Source of the DNA: Halobacterium hubeiense
GTDB taxonomy: Archaea > Halobacteriota > Halobacteria > Halobacteriales > Halobacteriaceae
Direction of reading: 5' to 3'
Assembly (NCBI RefSeq): GCF_001488575.1
Contig: NZ_LN831302.1
Coordinates: 682,001 to 746,000 of the forward strand
Length of the DNA stretch: 64,000 nucleotides
Position 1 is the stretch's first letter, and each line of letters starts with the position of its first letter. The notes under the pieces are model-generated. The model saw only the letters and a list, made by a program, of their open reading frames with translations, had not been told where the DNA came from and did no database searches. Made by a program: the position numbers and the translations under genes. Below, piece after piece: positions 54,916-57,458 of the stretch.

Positions 54916-55009
54916 TGTCCTCCGTACGCGCTACAGATTAACGGGTCTGCCGGTCCCCTCAATCGACGTCCGCGCTGCAGCCCTCGCAAAAGTGTAAGAA
55001 ATTTGACAG

Positions 55010-55082
55010 TAGTCCCGGGCGGATTCGAACCGCCGTCATGGGCTCCAAAGGCCCATATGATTGGCCACTACACCACGGGACT
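55010..55082 (-). tRNA. tRNA-Gln (TTG)
   Basis: A 73-nt gene on the minus strand. Acceptor AGTCCCG pairs with CGGGACT, discriminator A. Anticodon loop CTTTGGA within stem TGGGC/GCCCA gives anticodon TTG. T arm has GGTTCGAATCC. CCA is not encoded. Confidence 0.95.
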
Positions 55083-55154: not shown

Positions 55155-55589
55155 TCAGTCGTCAGCTTCGATGCCTTCCTCGACGAGCAGGCCGCACGCG
55201 TCGGCGTCGGCGTCGAAGCACTCCGGACACTGCGGCTCGCGGTCGATAATCATGTCGAGGCGGTCGGCGACCGTCTCGTCGATGACCGGTTCCAGCTGGC
55301 GGGCTTCCGCGCGGAAGTCGTCGACGTCGAGGACGTTCGCGAGGAAGCGCTCGAGGATGCAGTACGTCTGCAGCGCCTCGCGGGCGCGGGCTTCGCCGTC
55401 GTCGGTGACGGACGCGCCCTTGTACTTCTCGTGGGTGACGAGTCCGCGGTCCTCGAGCTTCCCGACCATCTCGTTGACGCTCGCGGGGCTGACGCCGAGG
55501 CGGTCGGCGAGTTCGCCGGTCGCCGCGGGGCCGTCCTCGAGCTGTTCGACGAGGAAGATGGTCTTCAGGTACTGGTCGGCAGTGTTCAC
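55155..55589 (-). CDS. DtxR-family regulator without C-terminal FeoA domain
   Basis: This 144-residue protein, read from the GTG that has GGAGGTG 6 nt upstream (another in-frame GTG at 55598 is less likely), has a winged HTH at 1-60 (A-D-Q-Y-L-K-T-I-F-L-V-E ... S-P-A-S-V-N-E-M-V-G-K-L) and a dimerisation/metal domain with Y-C-I-L-E-R-F-L. A C-terminal C-P-E-C plus one more Cys (121, 124, 132) may bind metal. It is a short, iron-dependent-regulator-like member. Upstream on the same strand are a ferritin-like gene and sufCBD, so iron/Fe-S control is the likely job. Confidence 0.85.
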   Translation of the reverse strand: MNTADQYLKTIFLVEQLEDGPAATGELADRLGVSPASVNEMVGKLEDRGLVTHEKYKGASVTDDGEARAREALQTYCILERFLANVLDVDDFRAEARQLEPVIDETVADRLDMIIDREPQCPECFDADADACGLLVEEGIEADD

Positions 55590-55630
55590 GCGACACACCT
55601 CCGGCGTTGAGTGGGTTCGTTCGTGCTCAT
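55586..55630 (-). CDS. 14-codon micro-ORF bridging the ferritin-like and DtxR genes
   Basis: ATG AGC ACG ... TGT GTC GCG TGA encodes M-S-T-N-E-P-T-Q-R-R-R-C-V-A. Its ATG overlaps the stop of the ferritin-like gene (ATGA) and its TGA overlaps the GTG of the regulator (GTGA). The ribosome binding site of the regulator lies within it. A translational bridge is the natural reading; chance cannot be excluded. Confidence 0.4.
   Translation of the reverse strand: MSTNEPTQRRRCVA
55596..55602 (-). promoter_or_regulatory. Ribosome binding site of the DtxR-like gene
   Basis: GGAGGTG, 6 nt before the GTG at 55589; decides the start. Its surroundings (GAGGTGTGT..CGTGA.CAC) nearly repeat those at 56128-56133. 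Confidence 0.65.
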
Positions 55631-56121
55631 GCGCGGGCCTCCATCAGTTTCGCGACTTCTTCGACGCCCTCCGCTTCGGCGTGGCGAATCTCCCGGAGCG
55701 TCTCCAAGACCGACTCGCGGTCGACGCTGAACGACGCCTCGCTGGCCTCGACGGCGTCGATGAGGTCGTCGTAGAACTTGTACGCGGTCTCCTCGCCGTG
55801 GAGCTGGTCGTAGAGCACGCCGTCGAAGTCCTCCGGGCCGGTCTGCCCGTAGCTCCCCGCGACGAGCTCCTTGACGTCCTCGAAGGGGATGCTGTCGGCG
55901 TCGAGGGCCTCGACGAGCGATTCGAGCCGGCGGCGGTGTTCCGCGGACTCCTCGCTGGCTTCCGAGAGCAGCGCCTCGATGGCTTCGTCGCGCTCCGCGG
56001 CGGGCAGCGACTGGTAGTGGCGGTGCGCGCGCGCCTCCACGACTTCCTCGAGGACGATGCCGATCTGGAGGAGGCGCGCGAGCTGGTCGTCGGAGTCGAC
56101 GCGGGCCGCGACCGTGCTCAC
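55627..56121 (-). CDS. Ferritin-like/rubrerythrin-like helical protein
   Basis: This 164-residue protein, from the GTG with a GAGGTG site 6 nt upstream, is all-helical. Acidic and His pairs recur in long helices: L-E-E-V-V-E-A-R-A-H-R-H-Y, S-E-E-S-A-E-H-R-R-R-L, L-H-G-E-E-T-A-Y-K-F-Y and I-R-H-A-E-A-E. This is the layout of a ferritin-like di-iron four-helix bundle. It lies between the suf genes and a DtxR-type regulator, so an iron storage, delivery or stress role is likely. Precise subfamily not assigned. Confidence 0.78.
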   Translation of the reverse strand: MSTVAARVDSDDQLARLLQIGIVLEEVVEARAHRHYQSLPAAERDEAIEALLSEASEESAEHRRRLESLVEALDADSIPFEDVKELVAGSYGQTGPEDFDGVLYDQLHGEETAYKFYDDLIDAVEASEASFSVDRESVLETLREIRHAEAEGVEEVAKLMEARA

Positions 56122-56153
56122 GGCACACACCTCGACGGCGGTACTCCGGTCAT
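56118..56153 (-). CDS. 11-codon leader micro-ORF before the ferritin-like gene
   Basis: ATG ACC GGA ... AGG TGT GTG CCG TGA encodes M-T-G-V-P-P-S-R-C-V-P; TGA overlaps the GTG start of the next gene. A TATA-like TTTAAG (56181-56186) is about 30 bp upstream of this ATG, so the mRNA may start leaderless here. The ending R-C-V-x-stop matches the 14-codon micro-ORF at 55586. Confidence 0.4.
   Translation of the reverse strand: MTGVPPSRCVP
56128..56133 (-). promoter_or_regulatory. Ribosome binding site of the ferritin-like gene
   Basis: GAGGTG, 6 nt before GTG at 56121; decides the start. It lies inside the 11-codon leader micro-ORF. Confidence 0.6.
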
Positions 56154-56180
56154 ACTACTCGTAACTGAGAGAGAAGCGGA

Positions 56181-56186
56181 CTTAAA
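56181..56186 (-). promoter_or_regulatory. TATA-like box of the ferritin-DtxR unit
   Basis: TTTAAG on the minus strand is about 30 bp before the micro-ORF ATG (56153) and about 62 bp before the ferritin-like GTG, which suggests the transcript begins at the micro-ORF. Confidence 0.55.
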
Positions 56187-56234: not shown

Positions 56235-57458
56235 CTACTGCAGGCGCTCGTGGATGCGCGTCTGGAGGTCCTCGCGGAGCTCCTCGACTTCGACCTCTTC
56301 GAGCACCGGCACGAAGAAGCCCTCCACGAGCATGTCCGTGGCGAGCTGCTCGGGGACGCCGCGGTTCTCCATGTAGAACAGCGTCTCCTCGTCGACCTGG
56401 CCGACGGTCGCGGAGTGGCTGGCCTCGGTGTCGTGGTTGTTGATGATGAGCTTCGGGGAGGCGTCGGCCTCGCTCTCGTCGCTCAGCATCAGCGTGTTCT
56501 CGCGCTGGTAGCTGGACGTGTCCCAGGCGTCCTTCCCGACGTCCTGGACGCCCTCGTACACCGAGCGCGCGTCGTCGTCGATGACGCCGCGCGTCACGAG
56601 GTCGGCGGTCGTGTGTTCGGCGCGGTGCCAGACCTTCGAGTCGAGGTCGAAGTGCTGGCCGTCGTGGCCGAAGAACGCGCCGACGATCTTCGTCTCGCTG
56701 GAGTCGCCGTTGAGCTCCGTGGAGACGCTGGTCTTCGTCAGGCGGCTGCCGAGGTTGCCCTCGATCCAGTCGACCGTGCTGTAGGTGGTCGCGTCAGCGC
56801 GCTTGACGGTGTAGTTGTACGTGTCCTCGTCGAAGTCCTGCAGGCTCCCGTACTGGACGTAGGAGTTCTCGCCCGCGTCGAGTTCGACGACGCCCGAGTA
56901 GTAGCGGCCGTCCTCGACCTCGGCGGCGTCCTCGGCGGTGTCCTGGCGCTCCAGAATCGTCACGGAGGCGTTGTCCTCGGTGACGACGAGCGTGTAGTTG
57001 AACAGCGACCGGGAGGTCATCGACGTCCGAATCGTCACGTCCTCGGCGTCGACGCCCGCGGGCACGTAGACGACCGTGCCGGTCGTGAACAGCGCCGTCG
57101 AGAGCGCGGTCAGGCGGTTCTGCTGGGGGTCGACGATGCTGCCGAAGTGCTCCTCGACGAGTTCGGCGAGGTCGTCGTCCTGCAGGGCCTCGTGGAAGGA
57201 CGCCACTTCGACGTCCTCGGGGCCGACCTGGTCTTTCTGCTCGGTCTGTCCGAGCGGGTCGACCAGCGCCTCGAAGTCGAGGTCCTCGAGGTCCGTCCAC
57301 TTGCGGCCCGGCGTCTCGATGACGTTCGGGTAGTCGAGGTCGTCGAGCGCGTCGAGGGCGTCCAGTCGCGTCTGGAGCAGCCACTCGGGCTCGTCGCGCT
57401 CGTCGGCGAGCTGCCGTACGGTCTCTTCGCTGATGTCCTGGTGCAGTTGCGCGCTCAT
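56235..57458 (-). CDS. sufD: SufD, Fe-S scaffold subunit
   Basis: This 407-residue protein has the SufB/D beta-helix core: V-P-A-G-V-D-A-E-D-V-T-I early, then G-A-F-F-G-H-D-G-Q-H and Y-E-G-V-Q-D-V-G-K-D-A-W-D-T-S-S-Y-Q, with A-S-H-S-A-T-V-G-Q-V-D near the end. SufD pairs with SufB and SufC to build Fe-S clusters. The gene follows sufB after a 1 bp gap. The suf genes run leftward; the ferritin-like gene follows. Confidence 0.95.
   Translation of the reverse strand: MSAQLHQDISEETVRQLADERDEPEWLLQTRLDALDALDDLDYPNVIETPGRKWTDLEDLDFEALVDPLGQTEQKDQVGPEDVEVASFHEALQDDDLAELVEEHFGSIVDPQQNRLTALSTALFTTGTVVYVPAGVDAEDVTIRTSMTSRSLFNYTLVVTEDNASVTILERQDTAEDAAEVEDGRYYSGVVELDAGENSYVQYGSLQDFDEDTYNYTVKRADATTYSTVDWIEGNLGSRLTKTSVSTELNGDSSETKIVGAFFGHDGQHFDLDSKVWHRAEHTTADLVTRGVIDDDARSVYEGVQDVGKDAWDTSSYQRENTLMLSDESEADASPKLIINNHDTEASHSATVGQVDEETLFYMENRGVPEQLATDMLVEGFFVPVLEEVEVEELREDLQTRIHERLQ

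Follow-up and report, generated by a model that had tools for sequence, protein, structure and literature searches.

How do ribosomes reach the starts of a ferritin-like gene and of the DtxR-like gene behind it, when each start is overlapped by the stop of a very short open reading frame? The question is raised by a locus on the minus strand of a 64,000-nucleotide stretch of Halobacterium hubeiense DNA, here called the window, in which two micro-ORFs of 11 and 14 codons (uORF1 and uORF2) precede two genes that both begin with GTG and both carry GAGGTG 6 nt upstream of that codon (Table 1). The original prediction read these overlaps correctly, and its estimate that about 17 of 22 bases around the two starts are identical agrees with our recount (17/22). 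It missed that the ferritin-like stop is in turn overlapped by the start of uORF2: the 37-nt gap between the two genes is filled exactly by uORF2, with ATGA at one end and GTGA at the other. It went on to propose that both genes are entered through the micro-ORFs, that uORF1 opens a leaderless mRNA, and that a Cys codon in each micro-ORF could sense cysteine supply. The gene upstream of the locus presumably encodes a SufB/SufD-type protein, and a tRNA-Gln (TTG) gene lies about 70 bp past the DtxR-like gene, at 55009-55082 (-).

Table 1. Features of the ferritin-like/DtxR-like locus, in positions of the window
Feature	Position	Strand	Details and basis
SufB/SufD-type gene (presumed), upstream	56235..57458	-	name presumed
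TATA-like box TTTAAGT	56180..56186	-	TTAAGT starts 32 nt ahead of the uORF1 ATG
uORF1, 11 codons, MTGVPPSRCVP and stop	56118..56153	-	putative first cistron of a leaderless mRNA; sequence and 195-locus comparison
Shine-Dalgarno-like GAGGTG within uORF1	56128..56133	-	sequence
GTGA overlap of uORF1 stop and ferritin-like start (GTG at 56121)	56118..56121	-	sequence
Ferritin-like gene (Dps/bacterioferritin-type four-helix, predicted)	55627..56121	-	model, Foldseek and weak Pfam match
ATGA overlap of ferritin-like stop and uORF2 start	55627..55630	-	sequence
uORF2, candidate relay micro-ORF, 14 codons, MSTNEPTQRRRCVA and stop	55586..55630	-	sequence and comparison
Shine-Dalgarno-like GGAGGTG within uORF2	55596..55602	-	sequence
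GTGA overlap of uORF2 stop and DtxR-like start (GTG at 55589)	55586..55589	-	sequence
DtxR/SirR-type metal-dependent repressor gene	55155..55589	-	PF01325 (5e-18), PF02742 (5.8e-10)

The ferritin-like product is predicted to fold as a four-helix bundle nearest to Dps/bacterioferritin. Its model (pLDDT 89.5) has long helices at residues 11-37, 46-73, 102-126 and 135-163, Dps and Bfr structures match it at a TM of about 0.7, and the best Foldseek match is 2clb (TM 0.72, probability 1.00, E 0.017), none of the matches reaching 0.001. Searching Pfam and NCBIfam with this product gave no match at 0.001, and a weak match to Pfam Rubrerythrin was obtained for 20 of 37 relatives; the alignment shows conserved E and H residues, among which di-iron or ferroxidase ligands may lie. 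The start codons agree with the alignment of relatives: in every locus compared (195/195), the ferritin-like start closest to its expected position is 11 or 12 codons ahead of a conserved QLARLL. GTG codons at 56130 and 55598 were considered as alternative gene starts and rejected, as most relatives align only from the overlap GTG.

Of 146 genomes of the order, 136 have the ferritin-like gene. We retrieved 130 of 138 ferritin-like matches, leaving out those in the six genomes that diverge most, along with two second copies, and added 80 named loci, which are the best 80 of 294 and are biased to close relatives, above all Halorubrum. Dropping 15 duplicates from the resulting 210 loci left 195 distinct upstream regions, with 67 genus labels plus unassigned rows, the named and coded genera being partly the same. 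Changes were counted on a fast tree (FastTree on the ferritin-like and DtxR proteins, 194 rows), and because the loci are related, the counts overstate independence.

At the first junction, an in-phase ATG micro-ORF ends on the ferritin-like start, with a stop-start overlap of exactly 4 nt, in 152 of the 195 distinct loci. Counted from the nearest ATG, these micro-ORFs are 7-31 codons long, with 16 codons in L186 and L190, which are species related to Haloferax volcanii; length has changed at least 37 times on the tree among the rows having a micro-ORF, and presence at least 4 times. A Shine-Dalgarno match of at least 4 nt accompanies 140 of the 152, as against 7 of the 43 loci without a micro-ORF. 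This group of 152 is itself defined by being in phase, and we built a test that does not presuppose a micro-ORF: every TTAAGT-like box was taken, with one mismatch allowed, and we determined which start sits 27-33 nt past the beginning of the box. A start was found at this distance in 173 of the 195 loci, belonging to an in-phase micro-ORF in 132 and to the gene itself in 41, and the other 22 have no such box-and-start pair. None of the 173 has solely an out-of-phase ATG 27-33 nt past the box; L062 is the sole locus with an out-of-phase ATG at box distance, and it has the in-phase one besides. Three loci (L130, L178 and L181) have an additional upstream ATG that shares the reading frame of the gene, though it is off the box distance.

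The original prediction had placed a TATA-like box at a leaderless distance from uORF1. This holds for 132 of the 152 micro-ORF loci, in which the box lies 27-33 nt ahead of the micro-ORF ATG; by the rule used here 20 have no box at the micro-ORF, and 2 of the 152 carry a box 27-33 nt ahead of the gene start. It had also named homologous loci lacking the micro-ORF as evidence against it, and such loci do exist (43/195). In 39 of the 43, the box stands instead 29-30 nt before the ferritin-like start, so the micro-ORF-less loci fit a coupling reading as well. Three of the remaining four (L071, L084 and L112) have other A+T-rich stretches in place of the box, and L127 has neither micro-ORF nor box. 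The distance from promoter to first start codon is therefore kept, whichever codon comes first, and spacing this constant looks like that of leaderless transcripts, whose 5' end would lie at or near that codon. A natural switch of the promoter to the ferritin-like start appears to have occurred in family f17, where three rows of genus g30 (L015, L017 and L045) have no uORF1 and carry a TTAAGT box directly ahead of the ferritin-like ATG; genus g22 has kept uORF1 in all 14 rows.

The second junction was compared in 194 loci, one locus having no DtxR-like gene in its stretch. The ferritin-like and DtxR-like genes overlap directly in 58, are joined by a single micro-ORF in 125 and by two chained micro-ORFs in 7, and fail the strict rule in 4; in 190 of the 194, directly or via micro-ORFs, each stop overlaps or nearly touches the next start. 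The gaps holding a single relay come in 37 different lengths, the relay of the Haloferax rows being just 3 codons long, and among single-relay rows the junction has changed length at least 62 times on the tree. Of the 123 gaps of at least 15 nt, 121 are spanned by a single relay or by a two-link chain, where 28% would be expected from shuffled gaps at random phase and 72% from gaps shuffled at their own length. Modulo 3, the lengths of these 123 gaps are 1 in 115 cases, 0 in 8 and 2 in none, as follows from the frame arithmetic of one-link and two-link bridges, the 8 gaps of residue 0 being the seven double relays and L117. The original proposal that both genes are entered via a micro-ORF is thus supported at both junctions, in frame and overlap at the first and in bridging at the second.

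The four failures of the strict rule are L117 (30-nt gap), L160 (13 nt), L147 (2 nt) and L036, in which the micro-ORF stops 2 nt early. L117 is the one plain exception to bridging: its gap is one base short of that of its sister L114, which is in phase, and the relay frame is broken, either by a natural mutation or by a sequencing error. The chained relays are those of L012, L031, L046, L051, L060, L100 and L118; in L100 the two links are alike (MNTVEA.. and VNSVEA..), which suggests a tandem duplication.

Could in-phase micro-ORFs of this kind be accidents of high-GC DNA together with a Shine-Dalgarno motif? Any start followed by A gives NTGA, a high G+C content keeps frames open, the ending is partly forced by the ribosome binding site, as the original prediction rightly cautioned, and the 72% of true-length shuffled gaps that are bridged is in keeping with such an origin. 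An accident, however, leaves the phase unexplained (28% expected at random phase against the 121/123 seen), and in each of the 132 loci that carry an upstream ATG at box distance, an ATG in the right phase is among those present. As a base rate we took 464 kb of haloarchaeal DNA, consisting of the window and twenty 20-kb stretches with 372 genes predicted by a home-made caller. Box, micro-ORF and overlap occur in combination only at the ferritin-like/DtxR locus in this sample, and among 217 same-strand pairs only 4 are bridged from stop to start, the ferritin-like/DtxR pair included, with zero bridged in the two wrong frames. Twenty starts in the 464 kb, the window's two included, are overlapped by 4 nt by some ATG micro-ORF other than the tail of a predicted gene. 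We regard an accidental origin as extremely unlikely; the micro-ORFs exceed chance through a phase kept across most of the order, not through their sequence.

To see what is kept, we compared variability at codon positions 1, 2 and 3, which is nearly even in the first-junction micro-ORFs (0.58/0.58/0.54 over 48 distinct 13-codon sequences) and in those of the second junction (0.32/0.24/0.27 over 21 distinct sequences in 43-nt gaps), as against 0.10/0.004/0.32 and 0.19/0.18/0.26 in two blocks of the ferritin-like gene, the bias in the second block being modest. That the ORFs as such have been conserved over long times might be taken to mean that they encode functional small peptides. Their sequence and length differ freely, though, their codon positions are equally variable, and their G+C content is level over the three codon positions at the first junction (0.62/0.63/0.63) and shows a weak gradient at the second (0.59/0.68/0.75), unlike in the gene (0.75/0.33/0.86); a peptide function is hence very improbable.

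Similar considerations apply to the proposed cysteine sensor, an attenuator in which ribosomes would stall at the Cys codon of a micro-ORF when cysteine is scarce and so alter expression of the iron genes. A Cys does stand near the end of both micro-ORFs in the window and in some close Halobacterium relatives, but over the whole comparison it falls within the last four residues in no more than 14 of the 152 first micro-ORFs and, among the single relays, in 7 of 114. Where uORF1 is accompanied by a single relay of at least 15 nt, both micro-ORFs have such a Cys in 4 of 87 loci (L001, L002, L004 and L131), all in the window's genus. Aligning the region across haloarchaea, the check that the original prediction had suggested, thus shows frame and overlap to be kept (152/195) and the TGT codon not. 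Equal variation at the codon positions, and folding no stronger than in shuffles at either junction, likewise speak against an attenuator, which we consider highly unlikely. With Cys variable and the codon positions varying alike, selection acts on the frame and not on the peptide.

The likeness between the two micro-ORF ends in the window is limited to close Halobacterium relatives. Their shared core, GGTGTGTNNNGTGA, occurs twice in the 3.13-Mb genome as an exact pattern, both times at this locus, and the reversed pattern occurs once; across the order the core turns up in 109 of the 146 genomes, without being specific for those two junctions. In 11 genomes searched for a palindromic variant, with at most 2 mismatches, each genome gave 0-2 matches. 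An origin of the window's own micro-ORFs from a repeat or a mycobacterial interspersed repetitive unit (MIRU) is not supported by the exact-pattern counts (two copies, both here).

Another way to couple the micro-ORF to its gene would be for translation of the micro-ORF to open a hairpin that hides the gene start, with new ribosomes initiating there and the same ribosome not being passed on, a type of coupling described in the excerpted text of PMC6728339. An inverted repeat surrounds the Shine-Dalgarno motif and start in some relays of family f14, and the pairing of motif and start is slightly above that in shuffles (0.62 vs 0.57; 0.54 vs 0.47). Yet the RNA shows no excess folding at the first junction (mean z 0.03, 152 loci) or the second (mean z 0.53, 121 loci), with 20 single-base shuffles per locus, Shine-Dalgarno motifs are said not to be used for new initiation in Haloferax volcanii (excerpts of PMC6728339 and PMC3986360), and opening a hairpin would not require an overlap of exactly 4 nt. 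We therefore find this explanation improbable.

What is conserved, then, is phase, overlap and promoter spacing, and what is not conserved is the peptide. The pattern at this locus is real and selected, and it is best explained by translation relays: both micro-ORFs are very probably relay cistrons that pass ribosomes on by termination-reinitiation. RNA polymerase would start at or beside the uORF1 ATG and produce a leaderless mRNA, on which a ribosome would begin with uORF1; its termination at GTGA would lead to reinitiation on the ferritin-like gene, helped by the Shine-Dalgarno motif inside uORF1. At the ferritin-like stop the ribosome, presumably the same one throughout, would be passed via ATGA to uORF2 and then via GTGA to the DtxR-like gene. 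The selected trait would be the unbroken chain of stops and starts in the right phase, the peptides being throw-away products, and lineages without uORF1 or uORF2 would for the most part make do with a promoter directly ahead of the ferritin-like start or with direct overlap of the two genes, respectively.

These relays are consistent with what is reported for H. volcanii, in which overlapping gene pairs are strictly coupled, downstream translation depends on upstream translation in other pairs (both from excerpts of PMC6728339), and Shine-Dalgarno motifs are said to serve reinitiation and not new initiation (excerpts of PMC6728339 and PMC3986360). Reinitiation there is about half at a distance of 13-14 nt and close to nothing at 22-23 nt, with coupling almost lost at about 20 nt (excerpt of PMC10666635). 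Under these Haloferax limits, a start bearing a Shine-Dalgarno motif 30-60 nt from the 5' end, or a start 15-200 nt past the previous stop, would be poorly reached unless translation leads there, which the micro-ORFs would provide for. The idea of a short ORF delivering a ribosome is found in a 2025 review (excerpt of PMC12548453).

Translational coupling as a kind is already known. The coupling of H. volcanii genes through 4-nt overlaps (excerpts of PMC6728339 and PMC10666635) is alike in its ATGA or GTGA, in a Shine-Dalgarno motif at the overlap, in its distance dependence and in the group of organisms, but it joins two full genes, whereas here micro-ORFs with unconstrained peptides are interposed, singly or in chains, at a gap or behind an upstream promoter. 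Small ORFs also precede haloarchaeal genes in the long 5'-UTRs of H. volcanii (excerpt of PMC4983044), though the 5'-UTRs of 150-250 nt and ORFs of 15-31 aa in that survey leave micro-ORFs 30-60 nt before a gene outside its range. Mycobacterial leaderless transcripts and small proteins (excerpt of PMC4633059) have leaderless small ORFs in common with our locus; these are bacterial, and the likeness is drawn without the overlap geometry. A synthetic short ORF that boosts the next gene (excerpt of PMC13255528) and, in bacteria, a small ORF between Salmonella genes that favours translation of a Mg2+ transporter gene (excerpt of PMC8092293) follow the same principle, both being likened by description. 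Relay micro-ORFs in archaea are not described in the open-access titles and abstract beginnings among the matches listed, and within the open-access matches listed we found no description of the deeply conserved, chained and peptide-free form at the ferritin-like/DtxR locus.

If the relay reading is true, it would provide strong evolutionary evidence, independent of reporters, against haloarchaeal ribosomes scanning across gaps, since the gap between the two genes almost always holds a bridge in the right phase and chained bridges shift the phase of the gap accordingly. Unannotated micro-ORFs would gain a role that needs no peptide, and small haloarchaeal ORFs, or their ribosome-profiling signal, should not be taken as functional micro-proteins. 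The arrangement also suggests that, throughout the order, the ferritin-like protein and the DtxR-type protein encoded beside it are held to linked amounts.

To what extent do relays occur at other haloarchaeal junctions? The argC-argB pair, which is one of the 4 bridged pairs in the 464 kb and has a match in 98 of 99 genomes, was tried as a clean negative control and failed as such. In the 30 loci inspected there are 13 direct overlaps, one locus without a start, and 16 gaps of at least 15 nt, 8 of which are bridged under a generous rule that allows any in-frame start. This is partial evidence for recurring relays, which may be less strictly kept elsewhere.

A second case is a nirA-type gene, which we take to encode a nitrite/sulfite reductase and which has matches in 40 of 59 genomes. 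A touching micro-ORF precedes it in all 14 close homologues inspected (L269-L282; the lower-identity L283-L298 stand outside this count), by a permissive rule that 44% of shuffled upstream DNA passes. Chains of two to four links are found in 6 of the 14 (chains of at least two arise in about 6% of shuffles); 12 of the 14 have an ATG micro-ORF 7-31 codons long, as do 15% of shuffles. Some of these links start like the gene itself (MNTV/MNSV).

A pattern for the relay ending gave 7 places in 6 of 116 genomes, all 7 ending on open frames of 74-501 codons, and its reversed control gave zero. A looser pattern, again with zero in the control, gave 19 places in 15 of 99 genomes, five of them shared with the stricter pattern's 7. 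In 16 of these 19, the relay start overlaps by 4 nt the stop of a preceding open frame at least 60 codons long, such frames not all being confirmed genes; of the rest, L309 has a 1-nt overlap, L321 starts 6-11 nt past the stop, and L307 forms an internal link within a ferritin-DtxR chain. Several of the 19 have an 87-nt sequence in common, some match to which was found in 50 of 99 genomes with up to nine candidates scored per genome, many of the matches being to the middle part only. A dispersed module distinct from the window's micro-ORFs thus exists in haloarchaea. It resembles the MIRUs, in which a short ORF is coupled to the next gene at -4 spacing (excerpt of PMC12548453), and MIRUs are dispersed, whereas the window's two micro-ORFs have no further copies in their own genome by the exact pattern.

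It is somewhat more probable than not that haloarchaea have a general system of peptide-free relay micro-ORFs, singly or in chains and some sharing the dispersed repeat of about 87 nt, which would fill operon gaps, stop and start touching at each link, because ribosomes cannot cross untranslated RNA. If so, many junctions would be concerned, among others those at dtxR, the nirA-type reductase, purQ, nuoCD, rps28e, gatA, argB, argC, ndk and leuC, by the names we presume. The ferritin-like/DtxR pair is the most deeply kept relay case among those compared here.

Relay modules of the family ending in CACNNGNGGTGGCTCGCRTGA (L299-L305 and L306-L324) stand ahead of many operon genes, which we take to be rps28e, nuoCD, gatA, argB, argC, ndk, leuC, mnhB and an aminotransferase gene, and in the longer modules the middle part resembles a repeat dispersed in many genomes. 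The window's own genome has a 28-codon relay, MTSERRARSLRCAGCDFRRHTRHRGWLA followed by a stop, at G000:C1:2057388-2057474 (L313/L326), which bridges two genes that are presumably purS-like and purQ-like; in two other genomes (L314 and L323) a relay very much like it stands ahead of a purQ-like gene.
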